From positions 1 to 33,698 of the IMG/VR virus record IMGVR_UViG_3300025319_000070: a stretch of DNA of 33,698 bases. The stretch is one strand, 5' to 3'. Of this stretch, positions 1 through 33,698 are shown in pieces (the stretch's first letter is position 1; every line of letters starts with the position of its first letter). Source of the DNA: a virus. A program made the translations under genes and the position numbers. The notes beneath the pieces were generated by a model. That model did not search any database and was not told the DNA's origin. It was given only the letters and a program-made list of their open reading frames with translations.

Positions 1-35
1 CCCCTCCCGTCCGGGCCGGGCACGGACGGGAGGGG
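1..35. other. Fold-back inverted repeat at the contig start
   Basis: Bases 1-13 are a perfect reverse complement of bases 23-35, around a 9-base loop. Only bases 11-35 are supported by the right-hand copy, where the sequence before the match is different (33563-33572). Bases 1-10 are therefore most simply a fold-back or read-end artefact of assembly. In the right copy this region encodes the proline-rich linker of the endolysin without interruption. Confidence 0.65.
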
Positions 36-2994: not shown

Positions 2995-3035
2995 GATTCT
3001 ATTCTATCCGGTATGCCCTAAATGCCAAGGCATCA

Positions 3036-3635
3036 TTAGGATTTCCAACCTTGTAAATGTAGCCTTCTAGTACCTGGGGCCGTAAAGGCCGTTGTTGTTC
3101 CCTTGGTTTTCCAAATTATTTTAATGGTATTTGATCCAACGGGAAGGCTAAGAATATCCCAATGGGAAAAATCAAAGCTAACGGTTGTAAAAAATCCACT
3201 GGTTTCAACCCAGGCATATGATCTTGGTGAATCCACGCCATTAAGCCGAAAAACAATATCTACCTCTGAGGCCCCGGCGGAAGCCGGAATCCTTGCCGTA
3301 TAAAGTGCTAATACCTTGGTGGCCACGCTTGAGCTAACCGTTATCGTATTGGTTAAATTCGTATCTTCCGTTTCATTAGTAGCCGCCGCCACCGATAAGC
3401 CCCCAGCATCGGAATCATCTAGTTTATAGGGGCTCATAGCACGGGAACGGATTTCCGAATCTTCAATATGCCGTTCCAATAACGTGGCACTAGGGATAGC
3501 CGCCGCCGCAATCTTGGTAGCTAATGGCTCCGAATGGTCATGAGCTATTTGAACAAAATTCCTCAAGGCCAAGACAATGGAGGAAAGCCCGGCCTTACCG
3601 GATGATAAAAAGCCATCCGTTAAATGGTTAAACAT
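3036..3635 (-). CDS. Tandem HxH tail protein C
   Basis: A 199-residue protein, the third and most diverged of three neighbouring paralogue-like proteins. It begins with a helix-rich segment that ends in AHDHSE, the position where its relatives carry SHTH and GHSH. A linker follows, then a C-terminal beta-sandwich-like half ending TRRLHLQGWKS. The start is ATG 3635, which overlaps the upstream gene by 8 bases; a longer frame back to 3791 would duplicate upstream coding sequence. The likely role is a small fibre or collar-type protein. Similarity between the three is by eye and modest. Confidence 0.65.
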   Translation of the reverse strand: MFNHLTDGFLSSGKAGLSSIVLALRNFVQIAHDHSEPLATKIAAAAIPSATLLERHIEDSEIRSRAMSPYKLDDSDAGGLSVAAATNETEDTNLTNTITVSSSVATKVLALYTARIPASAGASEVDIVFRLNGVDSPRSYAWVETSGFFTTVSFDFSHWDILSLPVGSNTIKIIWKTKGTTTAFTAPGTRRLHLQGWKS

Positions 3636-4251: not shown

Positions 4252-4826
4252 TGGCCCATTTCCACAATAAGTAATTCCCGTGGCGATTTGAATGTACCCA
4301 CGTTGGTAATCGCCGGGGTAATCGTATGGGCACCCGCCGTTACGTTGATCCACCACATAACGCTAAAGCCAAATTCTTCATACATTTCATCATTCCTTGG
4401 AATCCCTAGGGCGATATTAACGCTTGAATCATAAGCCCCATCAACCCGAATCCGTAATTCAAGGCTTGATGTTGAACCCACTACGGGCTTTTCATAATTC
4501 CGGTATAGAATCATTAACCGGGAATCTACGGGGGGGTTAATAGCTATTTCTACCGCCGTATCGTAACCCGTAGCCGTGCCCACATCGGCATATGAAGTAG
4601 CCCGATAAATGGTATGGGCTTGCTTTTTTCTGGTAATCACGCCATCAGTAAATTTGGCCCCCGTTAAAATGTTGTTCGTAATTCCGCCGCTTGGGATAGT
4701 TTTTCCTTGTCCCGTGATATGGGTATGACTATCAATATTATTTCTAAGCTTTACCCATGTGGCATTAGTAAAAGCCGCTACAGCATCCGTGAGTAAATCC
4801 GTTATGGGAATTGAAGAAAAGGCCAT
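4248..4826 (-). CDS. Tandem HxH tail protein A
   Basis: A 192-residue protein and the first of the three related products. Residues about 25-40 contain the segment LRNNIDSHTHITGQG. The C-terminal two thirds alternate hydrophobic strands (LELRIRVDG, FGFSVMWWINVT), as expected of a jelly-roll or beta-sandwich. The start ATG overlaps the hub gene's TAA by one base (TAATG), so translation is probably coupled. Position directly after the hub-like protein suggests a baseplate or fibre part. No enzyme motif is seen. Confidence 0.68.
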   Translation of the reverse strand: MAFSSIPITDLLTDAVAAFTNATWVKLRNNIDSHTHITGQGKTIPSGGITNNILTGAKFTDGVITRKKQAHTIYRATSYADVGTATGYDTAVEIAINPPVDSRLMILYRNYEKPVVGSTSSLELRIRVDGAYDSSVNIALGIPRNDEMYEEFGFSVMWWINVTAGAHTITPAITNVGTFKSPRELLIVEMGQ

Positions 4827-6454
4827 TATGCGGCCCTAATAGATTGCCCGATAAATAACCTTTCCAATTGTTGGGCCGCCGTAGCGGAAGCATAATCCGG
4901 GGTGCCATCTTCCGCTACGCTGGCATAAAGATTTGAAGCCGGTATATCGGCATCAAACAATTTGAATTGAATATCCCCACCCGCTACCCGTACCGCCTTA
5001 CTTAATATTTTTAGGAAATGATCCGCTACCCCACGGCTTCCGGCGGAAAGCTTGGGCAATATTTGATGGGTCACTCTGAGGGTGTCCCCTATTTCCATAT
5101 CCAATTGCCGCATATCCGCTACGGATAACCCTATTTCGGGATGGGGGGCCGCAAACATCAGGAAATGATACCGGGCTATCAATTCGGCCAAATCCGCCCC
5201 GCCGTTGGCTTCCCGTAAGCCTTTTAGGGATATTTCCAACGGATTGCGAAGGCCAAAGCGGGCGGTTGATGCTATGTCCGTTACTTGCCTGGATTTCAAA
5301 AATCCTCCTGTGGTTACATCAAAATCATAATACACCGTCACCCGATTGCTTAATAATTCGGCCTGGCCATTCCATGAAATATCCGATTTCAAATGCTCAC
5401 GGTTTAATTGCCGGGCCGGGGCCAAGGGTATGGGCCGTTCAATCATTTTCACCAAGCCAATGGTATTGCCCACCGTGGAACGCATAAATAATTTCAGGGG
5501 TTTCATCACTTCCCCCTCGGCAAAATTCTTAATGAATTGGGCCGTAAGGGTCCGATATTCGTACAAGATTTCCCGTGTACGGTCCTTGGCTTCAATCCAT
5601 GAAGCCGTATCAATGGAAAGGGTTTCTAATACTTTCCACCCGCTTGGCACCGTTTCAAAATTGATATCTTCCTCCAAGGATTCACCCGTTAGTATCACCG
5701 CCAATATATCTAGGGGGTGCCCCGGCCATATCACTACTTCTTTCACTTCGGCCCCAATAGCAAAGGCGTGATATAGGGTTCCCAATTGTGCCCGGCTTAA
5801 CCCCGTAAACGTGGTAGAGGTTTTCCCGGTCCACTTTATTATCTCGGCGGATTCACCGGAGCCGAGTATCAGGTAGCCCCGTGCCCCGATGGTTTCATAA
5901 TTGGAGAAGGGCCCCGCCGTGGCAAAATCCGCCGTGGATTCCACGGTAATAACCGTATCGGTTTCCGTAAAGGCAAGGGTTATTTTCGTTTTCGCCACCC
6001 GGAAAACCATTTGGGAAAGGTTTTCCTGTATGTCCGTGGTTTGAAAATCATAGGCCGTTGCATCGGCATTCAATCCCAGGTTGGTAATCACCCCCAGGAA
6101 TATGTTGACAAAATCCGCATAGGACGTTTTCGCCGTGCCCATTTTAATGGAGACAGATTTGCCAATAAAATCAATATCGTCAAGGCGGGCCGTGATTTCA
6201 TTGTCCTTATCTTGAATGGCAAACCCGATTCCCGCATAGGTGGCCTTCGCCGCATCCAAGGAAACGCTTGAAGCATTATCCCGAATGGGTAAGGCCAGGG
6301 AACGCACTTCCTTCCCTGAAATATTCAGGGGGGCCGAAGCATATACGATGGGCACGGCTTGGGCATTGGCATACCCTGATATTTCCACCAGGAAAACAAA
6401 ATCCTTTTCACCGGCGGCCAAATCGGCGGCTAAGGCCGTGGATAGGGTAATCAT
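4826..6454 (-). CDS. Baseplate hub-like distal tail protein
   Basis: A 542-residue protein. The first 130 residues form a beta-rich domain with the pattern common to siphovirus tail-tip proteins (LAGEKDFVFLVEISGY, then VSLDAAKATYAGIGFA). Residues about 160-240 contain a Thr/Phe/Gly-rich module (YLILGSGESAEIIKWTG, then FTGLSRAQLGTLYHAF) often found inserted in tail and baseplate proteins. The remainder resembles the hub or tail-associated-lysin class in layout, without a recognisable peptidase motif. It lies two bases after the previous gene and couples to the next by TAATG. It probably caps the tail tube and holds the fibres. Confidence 0.7.
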   Translation of the reverse strand: MITLSTALAADLAAGEKDFVFLVEISGYANAQAVPIVYASAPLNISGKEVRSLALPIRDNASSVSLDAAKATYAGIGFAIQDKDNEITARLDDIDFIGKSVSIKMGTAKTSYADFVNIFLGVITNLGLNADATAYDFQTTDIQENLSQMVFRVAKTKITLAFTETDTVITVESTADFATAGPFSNYETIGARGYLILGSGESAEIIKWTGKTSTTFTGLSRAQLGTLYHAFAIGAEVKEVVIWPGHPLDILAVILTGESLEEDINFETVPSGWKVLETLSIDTASWIEAKDRTREILYEYRTLTAQFIKNFAEGEVMKPLKLFMRSTVGNTIGLVKMIERPIPLAPARQLNREHLKSDISWNGQAELLSNRVTVYYDFDVTTGGFLKSRQVTDIASTARFGLRNPLEISLKGLREANGGADLAELIARYHFLMFAAPHPEIGLSVADMRQLDMEIGDTLRVTHQILPKLSAGSRGVADHFLKILSKAVRVAGGDIQFKLFDADIPASNLYASVAEDGTPDYASATAAQQLERLFIGQSIRAA

Positions 6455-7914: not shown

Positions 7915-8999
7915 TAGATTTCTGCGTCAGCCGTCCAATGTGCAATCATATGGTCATTCGCCGCACCATCTACCCCGCCCGTATTATTTCCAATATTAAA
8001 ACAACTGTCACCCGGTCCACCCGCCACGCTGGCCTTATCCACCCCTGTCGTATTATTTCGGATGACTCCCGTGGCACCCGTGGCAAAAGAATATAAAACG
8101 ATTGTCGGTGTGGTGCGCTTGGTCACTTTCCACCTGACGGTATACCCCCAAGATTCCCCATTCGGAATAGCTCCCGTTAGCCTGAACTGTTCGCTATTGA
8201 CTCCGGTTAAGGATGCTGGATTGGTCCCAATCGCATAGCTCTTTTCATAATATCTTTGGCACCTGGCGAGCTCAATTTCCGGGTCACTTGGAACAAAGGC
8301 AAGGGGCGTCAGCCCCACGATAAACATACCCGAATCGAAATAAGCCGTTCCCACGGACGGGGCGCTATCCTGACCCATACCGATACGGAGCCGGGTAGCC
8401 GTGGCGCTAACGGCTAAGATAACCGTGAGCGTTTCGTAGGCCGAAGCCCCGCTATGATAACTACTGACCGCCGTGGCGCTAATGCCGTCATCGAGCGTAA
8501 GGCGGAACTTACTGGCCACGTTTGCATGGACACGCATTTGAAAACTGACAGTCTTTCCACGGTACTGCTGGAAATTTTCTATGAACTGGTAATGTACCAG
8601 GCCAGTACAACCCGCCACCACGGTAAGGTCAACCTTCATAGCATACAATCCCTCGTCAATGACGCTGGCCTCGCGTGACACGGTGAATGTCGGCGGCCCT
8701 GCGTCTATTTGGAGCTTCCATCGGTCTGCTGTATAACTCCCGCTTGCGGGCGAACTGAAAGACGTATTCCTTTGCCACACTTCAAAGCCCCCGTTGATGA
8801 TGATATTTATTATTGATCGCAAGTCGAGGGCATTAAGCCGAGCTTTAACATCTACATGATTGCCCTTCGGCAAGATCCCGAATTCAGTAAGAGCCGCCAA
8901 CAATTCACCGGAAATGTCATTGATAAAGGCCCCTGTACCTATCCCGCCATCCGTTTGGGTGGGGAAGATTGGTAAGGTTGTGGGATATTCAATAGCCAT
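7914..8999 (-). CDS. Putative receptor-binding tail protein
   Basis: A 361-residue protein. The N-terminal 70 residues look like a tail-attachment helix-rich domain. Residues about 70-215 form a carbohydrate-binding-like module (INGGFEVWQRNTSF, ADRWKLQID, then strands FQMRVHANVASKFRLTLDDG). The segment after DPEIELARCQRYYEKS is a widespread phage fibre motif that introduces the C-terminal beta domain. By eye the gene uses GCGC and CGC more, and GGCC less, than its neighbours, suggesting recent acquisition. It starts directly after the previous TAA. Host-surface recognition is inferred from these modules. Confidence 0.72.
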   Translation of the reverse strand: MAIEYPTTLPIFPTQTDGGIGTGAFINDISGELLAALTEFGILPKGNHVDVKARLNALDLRSIINIIINGGFEVWQRNTSFSSPASGSYTADRWKLQIDAGPPTFTVSREASVIDEGLYAMKVDLTVVAGCTGLVHYQFIENFQQYRGKTVSFQMRVHANVASKFRLTLDDGISATAVSSYHSGASAYETLTVILAVSATATRLRIGMGQDSAPSVGTAYFDSGMFIVGLTPLAFVPSDPEIELARCQRYYEKSYAIGTNPASLTGVNSEQFRLTGAIPNGESWGYTVRWKVTKRTTPTIVLYSFATGATGVIRNNTTGVDKASVAGGPGDSCFNIGNNTGGVDGAANDHMIAHWTADAEI

Positions 9000-14541: not shown

Positions 14542-15087
14542 TTATATCCGCTTAATTCGGAGGGTTTCCAATTGTTCTTTAATATGGGTAGGCCAGGAAG
14601 TAAGAGTAATGGTTTGTTGGACCCCATCCCCTGTGGTAAAGGTTTTTGTTTTCTCCAGGGCCAGGATACCCGCCATTTCCGTGGCAATCATTTCAATAAA
14701 AGGGGGCGTAGGGTCTACGCCAAAATCTCCGGCCACTTCAATTTTGTTTCTGCGGGTATCCCAAAATCCGGCCACCCGTTTAATGTATTCCGGGTATAGT
14801 TCGTAATCCGTTTCCACTACCAGGGTCACGCCATCTTCTTTAAGGGAAGATAGGGAAATGATGGGAAAGTATTTGCCCGGTAAAAAAAGATTGGTTTGTC
14901 GTTCCGCTTTTGCCTGGGTTTTAATCGGGGTGCCCGCATTGACCGTGATTTTTTGCCAAAAGCGGCCCGTTACGTCATCCAGATAGGAGGTCACATAGGG
15001 AATGATTTGGGTAATCTTGGCATTCTGATTGGTGCCACCAATGGAATGGTACGCCTTAACTTTGTCTAACGTGGTGTAATCGGCCAT
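14542..15087 (-). CDS. Head-tail connector (gp6-like)
   Basis: A 181-residue protein starting TTLDKVKAYHSIGG with helical bundle segments (AKITQIIPYVTSYLDDVTGRFWQ) typical of the gp6-like head-tail connector family. The ring docks below the portal. The start ATG at 15087 directly follows the U-tract of an intrinsic terminator and has no Shine-Dalgarno sequence; the bases before it are CCCCCTTTTCTTTT. A later start would remove the first conserved helix, so I keep this one and note the odd leader. Confidence 0.8.
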   Translation of the reverse strand: MADYTTLDKVKAYHSIGGTNQNAKITQIIPYVTSYLDDVTGRFWQKITVNAGTPIKTQAKAERQTNLFLPGKYFPIISLSSLKEDGVTLVVETDYELYPEYIKRVAGFWDTRRNKIEVAGDFGVDPTPPFIEMIATEMAGILALEKTKTFTTGDGVQQTITLTSWPTHIKEQLETLRIKRI

Positions 15088-26576: not shown

Positions 26577-26600
26577 TTATTTCCCCCTTTCCGGCTTGCC

Positions 26601-26642
26601 ACCGGATAACCAAATACTAGCAATTCACTTTCCCTTTTTCAA
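26601..26642 (-). promoter_or_regulatory. Promoter-like site P3 after the loader gene
   Basis: On the transcribed strand there is a -35 TTGAAA (26637-26642), a 17-base spacer and a -10 TAGTAT (26614-26619). A single ATCCGGT box (26601-26607) lies just downstream. The -35 falls in the last codons of the loader gene. The first gene after it has a strong ribosome site at about 26585. The box differs from P1 and P2 in having only one clear copy and in lying after the -10. Confidence 0.5.
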
Positions 26643-28964: not shown

Positions 28965-29582
28965 TTATTCAAGATGATTGGCGTAATAATATCGCCAACC
29001 TTCATACAAATGCCGGGCTTGTAAAAATGATTCTGGCCGGTAGTCTACCCAATGCGGTTTGAATTTTCCATTGGGTTGTAATTCCACCACGGCCAATTTA
29101 TCCGCCGGGGCCAATTTCATTTCCCGCCGGGCGAATTCGTAGGCATTAACTTGCATCGGGTGTTCAAAGGGCCGGAATTTCCCGGCCTTAAAATCCACCA
29201 CGATAAGGCTATACGGCTTAGTTTTTTCCTGTATTTCTTGATCTAACGTACCGGCGAATTTATATTTCAAGGAAAATACGGTACGTTTCCGGGCTACCAC
29301 TTTGAGCCCATGCACTTTAAGGAAATTTCTGTAACTGTCCACATAGCCGCCCATCAGGGGCACGGAATGGGGCGGGGCCAGCCGTTCCTTATCTATTTCC
29401 GCATGGACCGCCGTTCCCCAATCCATTTTGGCTTGTTGGTCATTCAATCGCCCCATAGCCCGTAATTTTTCAACGTCCGGCTTGCGGATCATGGCCAATA
29501 CACTGGTAACACGGGCAAAGCTTTCACCCTTGCCATTCACATAAAAGAGCCCGGAGGAATGGAGCAAAGGGGTTTGGCTCAC
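28965..29582 (-). CDS. RecB/Cas4-like PD-(D/E)XK nuclease
   Basis: A 205-residue protein. Motifs in order are TAVHAEIDKE, AGTLDQEIQE with a likely metal-binding Asp, LIVVDFKAGKFRP (Asp-x-Lys catalytic pair), and HPMQVNAYEFARRE (Gln-xxx-Tyr motif of the RecB family). No Cys cluster is seen, so it is closer to RecB-type exonucleases than to iron-sulfur Cas4 proteins. The start overlaps the upstream stop (ATGA). With its upstream partner it could form a two-component recombination system of exonuclease and annealing protein. Confidence 0.85.
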   Translation of the reverse strand: MSQTPLLHSSGLFYVNGKGESFARVTSVLAMIRKPDVEKLRAMGRLNDQQAKMDWGTAVHAEIDKERLAPPHSVPLMGGYVDSYRNFLKVHGLKVVARKRTVFSLKYKFAGTLDQEIQEKTKPYSLIVVDFKAGKFRPFEHPMQVNAYEFARREMKLAPADKLAVVELQPNGKFKPHWVDYRPESFLQARHLYEGWRYYYANHLE

Positions 29583-30460
29583 GCCGCCCCCCCATTGCCC
29601 TGCCCTTCAATTTTCTTAATTAACTGCAACACCTGGCCGGAGGTTAATTTACTTAAATCCACCCGCCCGGATTTGTCTTTCCCCAAGGCCGGGAACATTT
29701 CCACGGCCCATTTCGCCACATGAGTATTCACCTTTTTGCCGTAGGCTTTCCCCCACATGGTTTTCAATTCCTTTTCATCGGCGGCCCCGGATTCTTTGGC
29801 CCCGGGCGTTATGCCATGGTCCTTATCTCCCGGTACGACTTCGGCATCATCCACCTTGGGGGCGGAATCGCCTTCCCCTTCCTCGGCGGTAATGTCCTGG
29901 GTGAAGATATCGGACAAGCGGCAAGCTTCCAGGGTGGCATCAATCAGGCTCCGCTTTTTGCCAATCTTGAGAATGGTATTAACCAAGGTGAAAATTTGGT
30001 CATTATCCACCCGGAAGGTTATACGGTCATTCCATCGTTTCATGGGCAGGGCGGAAATATCGTAGGCGGGCGGCACTTCTTTTTCCGTCACCCAACGGTA
30101 ACGGTATTTCGTTTCCATGGAATTGCATTCCCCAAACCCTTCCCCAGCATAGAGCCCCGCCATGTTCCGCAATTCACACCGGAATTTGAACCGGAAAAGC
30201 GGTTTATCCCAATCCTCAATTTCGTTAAGGATTTCGTATTTTGCAATCAAGCCGTGCATCTTAATCAACTTTTCCGCCCCCGGTTTCCACAGGCTGGGCT
30301 TATGGGCCCCCGGCTGTACCCCATAATCCAGGCCCAACCGCATTTCCTTTTGCACCATGATTTGGAATTCCCGAAGCTTCTTGAATTCGGCGGCCATATA
30401 GGCTCGATCCGGCACCGCCAAGGCATTCACTGTTGTGGCTAATTCTTCCCCTTTGCTCAT
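29579..30460 (-). CDS. Conserved early protein, annealing/ssDNA-binding candidate
   Basis: A 293-residue protein of a family widespread in phages and plasmids. Diagnostic stretches are GLDYGVQPGAHKP, LWKPGAEKLIKMHGL, FRCELRN, ECNSMETKYRYRWV and ILKIGKKRSLIDATL, followed by SDIFTQDITAEE. A disordered Asp/Glu/Pro-rich linker (about 200-235) and a C-terminal helical domain follow. The family's reaction is not settled as far as I know. Pairing with a RecB-like nuclease makes a single-strand annealing role attractive, but this is inference. It is the second gene of its unit, 15 bases after the regulator gene. Confidence 0.72.
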   Translation of the reverse strand: MSKGEELATTVNALAVPDRAYMAAEFKKLREFQIMVQKEMRLGLDYGVQPGAHKPSLWKPGAEKLIKMHGLIAKYEILNEIEDWDKPLFRFKFRCELRNMAGLYAGEGFGECNSMETKYRYRWVTEKEVPPAYDISALPMKRWNDRITFRVDNDQIFTLVNTILKIGKKRSLIDATLEACRLSDIFTQDITAEEGEGDSAPKVDDAEVVPGDKDHGITPGAKESGAADEKELKTMWGKAYGKKVNTHVAKWAVEMFPALGKDKSGRVDLSKLTSGQVLQLIKKIEGQGNGGAA

Positions 30461-30475
30461 TATCGTTTCCCCCCT

Positions 30476-30670
30476 TTATTCGGGCTTCCGGCCCGGCTTG
30501 ATTGGTTCATTGTTCGCCGCAATGCCTTTGTACCGAAGATAGGCCGCTATCGCCATGCGGATATGGTAGGCAATCGGCTGGCCGCCGTGTTTGCCGTCCT
30601 CGGAAAGCTTCTTTAGCCCGGCCCATTGGCTTTTCCAAAATCGGACCGTCATTTCAACCACCTCATCCAT
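30476..30670 (-). CDS. Ribbon-helix-helix regulator, candidate autorepressor
   Basis: A 64-residue protein. The segment VEMTVRFWKSQWAGLKKL ... AYHIRMAIAAYLRYK matches the MetJ/Arc/CopG pattern: a short strand that pairs in the dimer to fill the major groove, then two helices. The C-terminus is basic (IKPGRKPE). It is the first gene after promoter P2, whose spacer carries two ATCCGGT boxes 10 bp apart, a spacing typical for side-by-side ribbon-helix-helix dimers. A GGGGGG site lies upstream. Repression of P1 and P2 is inferred. Confidence 0.78.
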   Translation of the reverse strand: MDEVVEMTVRFWKSQWAGLKKLSEDGKHGGQPIAYHIRMAIAAYLRYKGIAANNEPIKPGRKPE

Positions 30671-30697
30671 TCATCACCCCCCGGTTATTGCTATTGA

Positions 30698-30727
30698 ATA
30701 CTACCGGATTCCACCGGATTATTTCAA
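30698..30727 (-). promoter_or_regulatory. Promoter P2 with paired ATCCGGT operator
   Basis: On the transcribed strand, -35 TTGAAA lies at 30722-30727, then an 18-base spacer, then -10 TAGTAT at 30698-30703. Two ATCCGGT repeats in the same orientation fill the spacer (30713-30719 and 30703-30709), 10 bp apart. The -35 overlaps the stop of the preceding gene. It should drive the ribbon-helix-helix gene and the recombination genes behind it. Confidence 0.75.
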
Positions 30728-31005
30728 GCCCTCACTATAACCCGCTTGATATAGGGAAATTTCACCCGCATCAGTGCGAGGGAATCACGGGGGCACCCCA
30801 GGGCTTCAAATTTTTTACACCCGCATTTTTCCGCCATAAAATCACCCGTACAGGCCCCATATCGTCCAGTAGACTGGCCCTTCACTTTAAATTCATTGTG
30901 GATACGTGTTTCATGGCCGCAATCACACGCCCCCCCCCGGACGATTAACTTAATAATCTTTTCGTATTCGGCCTTCATTTGCTTTTTGAATTTATCGGAT
31001 TCCAT
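30724..31005 (-). CDS. Cys-rich zinc-binding-like protein
   Basis: A 93-residue protein. The Cys/His pattern is CDCGHE, then CTGDFMAEKCGCKKF and a later Cys, with a basic C-terminus (RVKFPYIKRVIVRA). The layout is consistent with a zinc finger. The start at 31005 has GGGGG about 7 bases upstream. Its stop codon lies within the -35 of promoter P2. It probably binds nucleic acid or a host protein; the role is not known. Confidence 0.65.
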   Translation of the reverse strand: MESDKFKKQMKAEYEKIIKLIVRGGACDCGHETRIHNEFKVKGQSTGRYGACTGDFMAEKCGCKKFEALGCPRDSLALMRVKFPYIKRVIVRA

Positions 31006-31015
31006 TTATCACCCC

Positions 31016-31159
31016 CTAATCTTCTAAGATGAGATAACCACAATGGGCACAAATTTCCTCCCAGGAAGCCCCCCCATCCCTGCAAATATGTCCATCCAAA
31101 ATGGTGTTATGGTCCCCACACTGGGGGCAAGCTTCGGCCCGTGTCCGGTAGCGGATCAT
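31016..31159 (-). CDS. Zinc-ribbon small protein
   Basis: A 47-residue protein with a clean pair of Cys knuckles (CPQCGDHN ... CAHCGYLI) around a short acidic loop. The start is ATG 31159, overlapping the upstream TGA (ATGA); an upstream in-frame ATG (31198) lies inside the previous gene. Its form is close to zinc ribbons of transcription and replication factors. The function is unknown. Confidence 0.68.
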   Translation of the reverse strand: MIRYRTRAEACPQCGDHNTILDGHICRDGGASWEEICAHCGYLILED

Positions 31160-31356
31160 TCCCCGGCCTTCCATGATTTCCGTTCCGTCCGGGCCCATCG
31201 GGCATAGGCCAGCCGCAAGGCCAAGGAAATTTTCACGGCCATACCATAGCCGGTATCCGATAAAAATTTATCCATCATCTTTTGCCGGGCTTCCCCGAAT
31301 TCGGCCCCCCGATCATGGGCACGGTTGGCAATTTCGTAATATTGTTGGCTTGTCAT
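31156..31356 (-). CDS. Small helical protein, unknown
   Basis: A 66-residue, mainly helical protein (YYEIANRAHDRGAEFGEARQKM, VKISLALRLAYARWARTER) with a positive C-terminus. It overlaps the metallopeptidase-like gene stop (ATGA) and the next start. No known motif is visible. Position in the early operon hints at host takeover or DNA handling. Confidence 0.6.
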   Translation of the reverse strand: MTSQQYYEIANRAHDRGAEFGEARQKMMDKFLSDTGYGMAVKISLALRLAYARWARTERKSWKAGE

Positions 31357-31799
31357 TGGGCACCCCCCATATTAGATTTTCGCCATTCCCGTAATTTGCG
31401 GATAGCGTAGGCATCGGCATCCCGTTCCGAAAATTGGCCACGGGCCCCCCATACCCGCCAGCCGGATTTTACTTTGGCTTGCCATAGGTGGCGTAATTCG
31501 TGGGCCATTACATATACCAAAGCTTCAACCCGGCTTCCCATCCAAGGGGTAGGTAAATATCCGGCCCGCCGTGATTCTATCGGACGGGCTGGAAATAATT
31601 TGGATTCGCCCACCCGGACCACTACCAAGGGCGTAGCCGTGCCATGATAGCCGCAACCCTCATGGTAGGCCGATCCGGCCAACAACCCGGAGCAATTTTT
31701 AACATGAATATCAAATTTTGAAATGCCATTAGGACGGACAAAAGAAATAACCGCCCGAATGGTACCCATATCAATTTGGGTTGTGTTTCCAATTCTCAT
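31353..31799 (-). CDS. Zincin metallopeptidase-like protein
   Basis: A 148-residue protein. AHELRHLWQAK gives the HExxH zinc motif (HELRH), and SERDADAYAIRKL about 25 residues later has the acidic residue placed like the third zinc ligand of gluzincins. The first half is beta-rich with three Cys residues. It starts at ATG 31799, overlapping the preceding stop (ATGA). Possible roles are cleavage of a host regulator or an ImmA/IrrE-like switch; the target is unknown. A catalytically dead relative is possible. Confidence 0.7.
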   Translation of the reverse strand: MRIGNTTQIDMGTIRAVISFVRPNGISKFDIHVKNCSGLLAGSAYHEGCGYHGTATPLVVVRVGESKLFPARPIESRRAGYLPTPWMGSRVEALVYVMAHELRHLWQAKVKSGWRVWGARGQFSERDADAYAIRKLREWRKSNMGGAQ

Positions 31800-31999
31800 T
31801 CCGACACCCACAAAGCACAATTATTTTCTTTGGCCAATTTCAGCCAATCCAAAATCATGCCTACGGTATCCGTTACTTTGAAGGTTTTATTAACCGCCAT
31901 GATTTCATGACCCACTATCCAAGCTTCCACAAAAATACCTTCCTTAAAAACGTCATTCTTAAATTGCCATTCCACACGATATTGAAATTCTTTTTCCAT
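31796..31999 (-). CDS. First early-operon protein, unknown
   Basis: A 67-residue protein, start ATG 31999 behind GAGGGGGAATAAA. The sequence (MEKEFQYRVEWQFKND...) looks beta then helical, with Trp and Asn-rich ends. It is the first gene after promoter P1 and so would be among the earliest expressed. A longer frame back to 32143 passes through the promoter and is rejected. The function is unknown. Confidence 0.65.
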   Translation of the reverse strand: MEKEFQYRVEWQFKNDVFKEGIFVEAWIVGHEIMAVNKTFKVTDTVGMILDWLKLAKENNCALWVSE

Positions 32000-32048
32000 T
32001 TTATTCCCCCTCGCCCCTGTAGGTGGGGCCACCTTGCCGGACAAGTAA

Positions 32049-32077
32049 AGTATAACCGGATAGCACCGGATAAACAA
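32049..32077 (-). promoter_or_regulatory. Promoter P1 with paired ATCCGGT operator
   Basis: On the transcribed strand, -35 TTGTTT lies at 32072-32077, a 17-base spacer follows, and -10 TATACT is at 32049-32054. The spacer is exactly two ATCCGGT boxes (32065-32071 and 32055-32061) separated by 3 bases, as in P2. It is placed about 50 bases before the first early gene. A strong terminator just upstream isolates it from the late operon. Confidence 0.8.
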
Positions 32078-32147
32078 GTGGAAATGAATAATAATCGGCA
32101 TCACGGAAAGCCTTATGCCATAAAGCAAATATGAGTAATACAAATTA

Positions 32148-32181
32148 AAACCCCCAGGTCAGGAAAGGCCCGGGGGTTTAT
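32148..32181. terminator. Bidirectional-type terminator between late and early operons
   Basis: An 11-bp stem (32148-32158 with 32169-32179, one A/C or G-U position) encloses a 10-base loop. It has T-rich tails on both strands (TTTTAATTTG for minus transcription). It lies after the holin-like gene and before promoter P1, so it ends the late/lysis operon. With a 213-base gene-free interval it separates the two main units. Confidence 0.82.
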
Positions 32182-32212
32182 TTGCTTGGCGATTATTCCA
32201 AGCGGGGCCCTC

Positions 32213-33045: not shown

Positions 33046-33687
33046 TTACAGACTCCGGGCCAATTCTAAGCTAGTTTCAACGTGCATTCCGTCCTTGGTA
33101 TTCCACCGGCCCCCCCATACAAACCCGGCATCTTCCCAAATCTTCACCACACGGCCATCTAGCTTGGGATTCACGCCATATCCGTTAGTAGTGGGGTTCA
33201 TGTCCCAGGCCATCCCCCAAGAATGCCGGGAAAGCGGCTTTTCCTTTTTGAAAAGCATATGCCGGGGAACAAAACACCCACCAATCTTTTTGGTATCCTC
33301 AATCTCAATGGCTTCAGGGCATTGCTTGGCAATCTTGGCCCAAATGGCTTGGTAGGCATCAAACAATTTAATATGAACCCTGGCCTTCCCAATCAAGGGA
33401 AACGTGCCCACTGTAAGATTAGCCGCCATCCAATCCTGGGCGATTTCAATAAAGCCATCGGCCTTATCCTGATATGCAAATTTCCCAAAATGGGTTTCAA
33501 TGTCGGCTAGGGTCATCATGGTTATGCTACGGATGGGGGGAGTCACCGGATGGGCCACTACAGGGGGTAGGACCGGGCCGGGCACGGACGGGAGGGGGGA
33601 AGGCCCCGGCTCCGGGGGCATCATAGGCTGTTGGCTCATATCGGCATTAAATATAATCCGAAAAATCCATTTGATAAATTCTATCAC
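33046..33687 (-). CDS. M15-family endolysin with proline-rich linker
   Basis: A 213-residue protein. The N-terminal 15 residues form a hydrophobic, positively charged segment (IEFIKWIFRIIF). A Pro-rich linker follows (about 17-55), then the catalytic domain. RHSWGMAWDMNP gives the SxHxxGxAxD-type zinc motif and KDGMHVE the final His of M15 peptidases. Such enzymes cut peptide cross-links of peptidoglycan, for example L-Ala-D-Glu. I take GTG 33687, overlapping the upstream stop (GTGA), as the start; a TTG at 33696 is possible. The N-terminal segment may anchor or delay the enzyme, which is inference. Confidence 0.85.
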   Translation of the reverse strand: MIEFIKWIFRIIFNADMSQQPMMPPEPGPSPLPSVPGPVLPPVVAHPVTPPIRSITMMTLADIETHFGKFAYQDKADGFIEIAQDWMAANLTVGTFPLIGKARVHIKLFDAYQAIWAKIAKQCPEAIEIEDTKKIGGCFVPRHMLFKKEKPLSRHSWGMAWDMNPTTNGYGVNPKLDGRVVKIWEDAGFVWGGRWNTKDGMHVETSLELARSL

Positions 33688-33698
33688 GGCATCCAATC
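33573..33698. repeat. Direct terminal repeat, right copy (circle closure)
   Basis: This is an exact copy of 11-136. It lies within the 5' end of the endolysin gene, and on the circle the lysis-cassette genes at 122-666 continue directly upstream of it. The base before the match is adenine here and thymine at the left end. Confidence 0.85.

Follow-up and report, generated by a model that had tools for sequence, protein, structure and literature searches.

We analysed a stretch of 33,698 bases, which is an entire IMG/VR virus record and is referred to here, at its full length, as the window. The ends of the record overlap by ~115-120 bases, and it is therefore very probably a circularly closed assembly. 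At the two ends (window 1-35 / 33583-33698), the first 15-20 bases mismatch the overlap and make up a perfect inverted repeat of 13 bp (CCCCTCCCGTCCG...CGGACGGGAGGGG), which probably arose as a fold-back artefact where the assembly was closed. The presence of terminase, portal, major head and tape-measure genes indicates a tailed phage. Neither an integrase nor a match to an HTH_3 repressor was found in it, its early region had no match among annotated phage records, and an Rfam element or tRNA was rejected after search.

All of the genes discussed are encoded on the minus strand, and the features of the early units are collected in Table 1. The unit behind the promoter-like sequence P1 includes a metallopeptidase-like gene, which is mosaic and recurs at 42-57% identity in nine IMG/VR contigs that are otherwise mostly unrelated. 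The unit behind P2 opens with an orphan gene encoding a 64-residue protein, preceded by a ribosome site (GGGGGGTG) of the form common to the neighbouring genes, and continues with a phrog_10048 gene and then with exonuclease, Gp157-like, DnaD-like and DnaC-like genes.

Table 1. Promoter-like sequences, candidate operators and genes of the early units in the window
Feature	Coordinates	Strand	Details
P1, promoter-like	32049..32077	-	TTGTTT-17-TATACT; between a bidirectional terminator-like hairpin and the first gene (ATG 31999)
O1, candidate operator	32055..32071	-	ATCCGGT GCT ATCCGGT, exact match
First gene behind P1	31796..31999	-	67 residues
Metallopeptidase-like gene, P1 unit	31353..31820	-	HELRH motif
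P2, promoter-like	30698..30727	-	TTGAAA-18-TAGTAT, 9/12
O2, candidate operator	30703..30719	-	ATCCGGT GGA ATCCGGT, exact match
64-residue orphan, first gene behind P2	30476..30670	-	net charge +4, pI 9.6
phrog_10048 protein, second gene of P2 unit	29579..30460	-	
P3, promoter-like	26614..26642	-	TTGAAA-17-TAGTAT, TG ahead of -10
O3, candidate operator	26590..26607	-	ATCCGGT N4 AGCCGGA; one perfect box, one 5/7, 11-bp pitch
First gene behind P3	26343..26576	-	77 residues, good ribosome site
P4, promoter-like (weak candidate)	3001..3028	-	TTGGCA-16-TAGAAT, 10/12

A paired box in the early promoter-like sequences

We found that the exact arrangement ATCCGGT-N3-ATCCGGT occurs twice in the window, in both cases on the minus strand (32071-32055 and 30719-30703), and nowhere else, and that even the relaxed form TCCGG-N5-TCCGG has no copies in the window beyond these two pairs. 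Both are intergenic (in the gaps 32000-32212 and 30671-30723) and both lie inside promoter-like spacers. The two direct boxes three bases apart that had been described between the -35 and -10 hexamers of P1 and P2 are confirmed as exact matches. P1 reads TTGTTT-ATCCGGTGCTATCCGGT-TATACT, with the candidate operator making up the whole 17-bp spacer, and P2 reads TTGAAA-TA-ATCCGGTGGAATCCGG-TAGTAT, in which the first base of the -10 hexamer is the last T of the second box. The hexamers had been called good at both promoters. This is a fair description of P2 (9/12), as it is of the P1 -10; the P1 -35, by contrast, matches at only 3/6, and overall P1 scores 8/12 and falls under the cut-off of the promoter scanner. 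At the start of the gene at 30724-31005, a stretch of 26 bases (30979-31004) is 73% like the P2 operator region and contains ATCCGAT, which may be a degenerate site or chance.

Two further boxes in non-coding DNA, which the original prediction had missed, both adjoin promoter-like sequences. P3 has in common with P2 the hexamer pair TTGAAA and TAGTAT, which is found at no other place in the window, and the first base of its perfect box (26607-26601) falls on the expected start site. At P4, a single box in reverse orientation (3012-3006) abuts the -10 hexamer; there is no ribosome site before the ATG at 2994 of the following gene, for which reason we treat P4 as a weak candidate only. A box at another promoter-like site, at 3631, was set aside, since it lies within a gene and is probably due to chance.

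Next, we investigated whether the box exceeds chance expectation. In 7 of 200 dinucleotide shuffles of the genome, some 7-mer was doubled with a gap of 0-15 and recurred in a second place; non-coding DNA makes up ~3% of the window (~1.1 kb; 1,068 bases), and a random 17-bp site falls inside the spacer of a promoter scoring at least 8/12 in ~2.6% of cases. Although these three factors are not fully independent, jointly they make chance unlikely. Of all 7-mers in the 1,068 non-coding bases, ATCCGGT has the most copies, and this DNA holds half of those in the window (6/12; binomial 8e-7); upon shuffling the non-coding pieces 1,000 times, any 7-mer reached six copies in just 4 of the shuffles. When the four boxes that prompted the finding are left out, two of the eight remaining copies are non-coding (binomial 0.025), and the independent support from these is real but modest. 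Across the whole genome, a box accompanies 4 of the 46 promoter-like sites on the minus strand, the intragenic one at 3631 among them, but none of the 39 plus-strand sites (permutation p 0.002). The proposed operator would have been in doubt had paired boxes been equally frequent at random places; that comparison was run, and the proposal withstood it, with the two exact pairs being the only ones in the window. Another 7-mer, CCGTGGC, is doubled with a 2-base gap at 8069, 10972 and 13343, in coding DNA of the structural gene region.

Beyond this phage, we observe the double box in at least 119 stretches of viral_contigs, roughly the chance expectation, and the double box together with a -35 TTG in 15 IMG/VR records, again at about chance level and with none of the records recognised as kin, which indicates that the motif is not widely shared among phages.

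The 64-residue protein and the relatives of the phage

The protein encoded at 30476-30670 had been assigned a MetJ/Arc/CopG pattern, that is, to the ribbon-helix-helix (RHH) proteins, and none of our profile, structure or homology tests backs this. It has no match in Pfam or NCBIfam (E <= 10), in PHROGs (E <= 1) or among PDB sequences, and PF01402 was silent across the window at E <= 10. With a home-made RHH profile built from 19 sequences, it ranked 73rd when set against 2,000 shuffled versions of itself and 7th among the 245 open reading frames of the window; the former rank means that the profile cannot separate the protein from its own shuffles. A single-sequence AlphaFold2 model of low confidence (pLDDT 72, pTM 0.35) contains helices at residues 2-28 and 33-48 and no strand, and a Foldseek search with it returned zero matches. 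As a control, the genuine RHH protein of L136 (described below) taken through the same route gave an extended N-terminus followed by two helices, with CopG and Arc as the top matches.

RHH proteins carry a loop motif G-X-S/T/N and have Ser/Thr where helix 2 begins (PMC2812701). Upon aligning the 64-residue protein by hand on the IRxAIxxYL helix, its loop is G30-Q-P32, in which the G is kept and P replaces S/T/N, and it is ~3 residues longer than that of CopG. Its segment IRMAIAAYL resembles RHH helix 2 and its stretch MTVRF could be a strand, which makes the initial RHH impression understandable. Overall, we consider it rather unlikely, though with an appreciable chance, that the protein is an RHH protein, and on present evidence the arrangement in the window cannot be filed as an RHH system.

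Exact short-peptide scans, which by our estimate may miss relatives below ~80% identity, found no relatives of the 64-residue protein in viral_contigs, genome_contigs, phages or plasmids, and 398 genomes of one bacterial phylum gave just chance-level matches. We also sought relatives of the early region with scans for the phrog_10048, terminase, capsid and metallopeptidase proteins, and found none with either the 64-residue gene or the boxes. L122-L124 and L223 are short pieces of the same phage, 100% identical in the matched genes, and the three of them that were searched do not contain the early region; the other scan matches are mosaic relatives with one or two common genes. The lineage is uncultured, with hardly any sequenced relatives.

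Two contigs are informative about the organisation of such early units. In L136 (IMG/VR contig 3300033149_005302), the phrog_10048 protein is 46% identical to that of the window, and a genuine RHH gene (RHH_1, E 9e-8) stands first behind a strong promoter, TTGACA-17-TAAAAT, upstream of recombination genes. As in the window, a small protein gene thus comes first behind the promoter and ahead of the recombination-associated phrog_10048 gene, whereas the RHH protein of L136 has no sequence similarity to the 64-residue protein, L136 is temperate with integrase-like and repressor-like genes adjacent, and TAACAC/GTGTTA elements replace the CCGG boxes. At 4742-5422, L136 has the layout of a temperate phage: its HTH repressor gene is divergent and an RHH gene is the first early gene, and the TAACAC...GTGTTA repeats of its promoter are a possible operator pair. 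L329, a distant syntenic relative, has the same unit order as the window (lysis genes, metallopeptidase unit, recombination genes), with an HTH-like gene immediately ahead of RecT; its two corresponding regions have no common operator. Before its metallopeptidase unit (5441-5574), there are three 12-base direct repeats at a 13-bp pitch and a 21-base inverted repeat. The RHH protein of L136 and the HTH-like protein of L329 suggest that a small DNA-binding protein heading the recombination genes recurs, while its family changes.

Its small size, its basic character and its place at the head of the P2 unit make the 64-residue protein the best candidate for the regulator. With no relative and no recognisable DNA-binding domain, it is tied to the boxes by position alone, and that it binds them is possible but somewhat short of an even chance. 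Its candidacy for box binding and self-repression draws on gene position and on the analogy with Arc of phage P22.

Candidate regulation of the early units and its alternatives

Taken together, ATCCGGT is likely part of an operator common to two, and probably three, early promoters, as far as can be judged from the sequence. The original prediction held that a double operator turns down both early units; the common operator is well supported by the sequence, and repression, likely by promoter occlusion, is the likeliest reading of it. The place of the box varies, in the spacer at P1 and P2 and at the start site at P3, which favours occlusion by a repressor over either a core promoter element or a class II activator site. 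We propose that a phage-encoded repressor would recognise the ATCCGGT box. At P1 and P2 it would bind two boxes one helical turn apart that occupy the spacer between -35 and -10, and at P3 one good and one poor box that cover the start site, so that RNA polymerase would be blocked at all three. Once enough repressor had been made, expression would fall together in the P1 unit, in the P2 unit, which carries genes for recombination and replication, and probably in the P3 unit. The repressor would most likely be the 64-residue protein, which, first behind P2, would keep its own production in check in the way that Arc does in P22. To this reading as a whole, including the activity that we infer for the promoters and the autoregulation of the orphan, we give about an even chance of being correct. 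The first-gene position of the RHH gene in L136 speaks for it, while the weak -35 of P1, the absence of both boxes and gene from the relatives and, in L329, the HTH-like gene at the equivalent place and the missing common operator weigh against it.

Several other explanations of the boxes were weighed. They could be operators of another phage protein, such as a helix-turn-helix dimer, with the first P2 gene unrelated to them. CCGG-N6-CCGG is its own reverse complement, and each pair can therefore be read as a single inverted repeat with half-sites 10 bp apart, a geometry of the 434 operator type; the absence of a detectable DNA-binding fold in the 64-residue protein and the HTH-like gene directly ahead of RecT in L329 point the same way. 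Nevertheless, the bases flanking CCGG at P1 and P2, AT before and T after, repeat directly and not inverted, the ATCCGGT boxes at P3 and P4 are single, and there is neither an HTH_3 match in the phage nor an HTH match among the early proteins scanned, and we regard this explanation as unlikely. An operator for a host regulator, tying the early genes to the state of the host, is a still less probable reading. Regulators of the OmpR/PhoB type bind direct repeats of ~7 bp at a 10-11 bp pitch, which the 7-bp direct repeat with a 3-bp gap would fit, and the phage has no clear regulator of its own; on the other hand, class II activators usually overlap the -35 and not the spacer, and the double box combined with a -35 TTG is about as frequent in the IMG/VR records as chance would give.

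Activation, with a protein like CII of phage lambda switching on P1 and P2, appears quite improbable. Lambda CII binds direct repeats 10 bp apart (TTGC-N6-TTGC), so that the 10-bp direct pitch is one that CII-type operators also have, and the -35 of P1 is weak, as is often the case in activated promoters. Yet the sites of CII lie on either side of the -35 and do not, like these boxes, take up the spacer; at P3, an activator bound to the box would sit on the start site and stand in the way of polymerase; the hexamers of P2 and P3 are adequate unaided, and no CII-like gene was recognised. Finally, the boxes might have no binding protein at all and reflect chance or one promoter copied to a second place. 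The doubled 7-mers recurring in some of the shuffled genomes and the presence in real phage DNA of another such double, CCGTGGC, with its gap of 2, in three coding places, are in keeping with chance, but the non-coding enrichment and the third promoter speak against it and leave it very improbable; copying was rejected, as P1 and P2 are unlike in their hexamers, in their 3-bp gap and in the distance from the -35 to the boxes.

Repression by a phage-encoded protein, the reading that we prefer, can be compared with known switches. In the P22 record, the promoter (14793-14821) encloses the Arc operator (14798-14818), and arc comes first among the genes behind it. The window resembles this Arc/P-ant arrangement in having the operator between -35 and -10 at P1 and P2, half-sites about one turn apart and a small protein (53 aa in the case of Arc, the candidate regulator in the window) encoded first behind the promoter. 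It differs in that the operator of Arc forms an imperfect palindrome of 21 bp with differing half-sites, whereas the boxes are identical 7-mers in direct repeat, in that the operator stands at two promoters plus a third site, and in that Arc is a true RHH protein, while the candidate of the window is not recognisable as one. The direct repeats, the 10-bp pitch and the location in a phage promoter are also found in the sites of lambda CII and P22 C1, which flank the -35 and activate, unlike the boxes in the spacer (P1, P2) or at the start site (P3). F55 of the Sulfolobus virus SSV1 is an RHH repressor acting at tandem repeats in several early promoters and at its own promoter (PMC5569661). The tandem repeats in several early promoters and a small viral repressor, for which the window offers a candidate, are common to the two systems, but F55 belongs to an archaeal virus with archaeal promoters, has an established RHH fold and serves the maintenance of lysogeny, whereas in the phage of the window no integrase was found.

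Switches in which a repressor operator lies inside an early promoter are known from phages; the window provides what is probably a clean new example, and the orphan gene becomes a testable candidate for the regulator. It is distinctly unlikely, in our judgement, that the 64-residue protein founds a family of small repressors with neither RHH nor HTH fold, acting through 7-bp CCGG-centred boxes at three or more early promoters in a phage without integrase or lysogeny repressor; if the orphan did bind the boxes without either fold, it would be a new type of small repressor. Overall, these findings indicate that one genome, with relatives not being needed, can be enough to expose a regulon when a short direct repeat lies in the spacers of two promoters.
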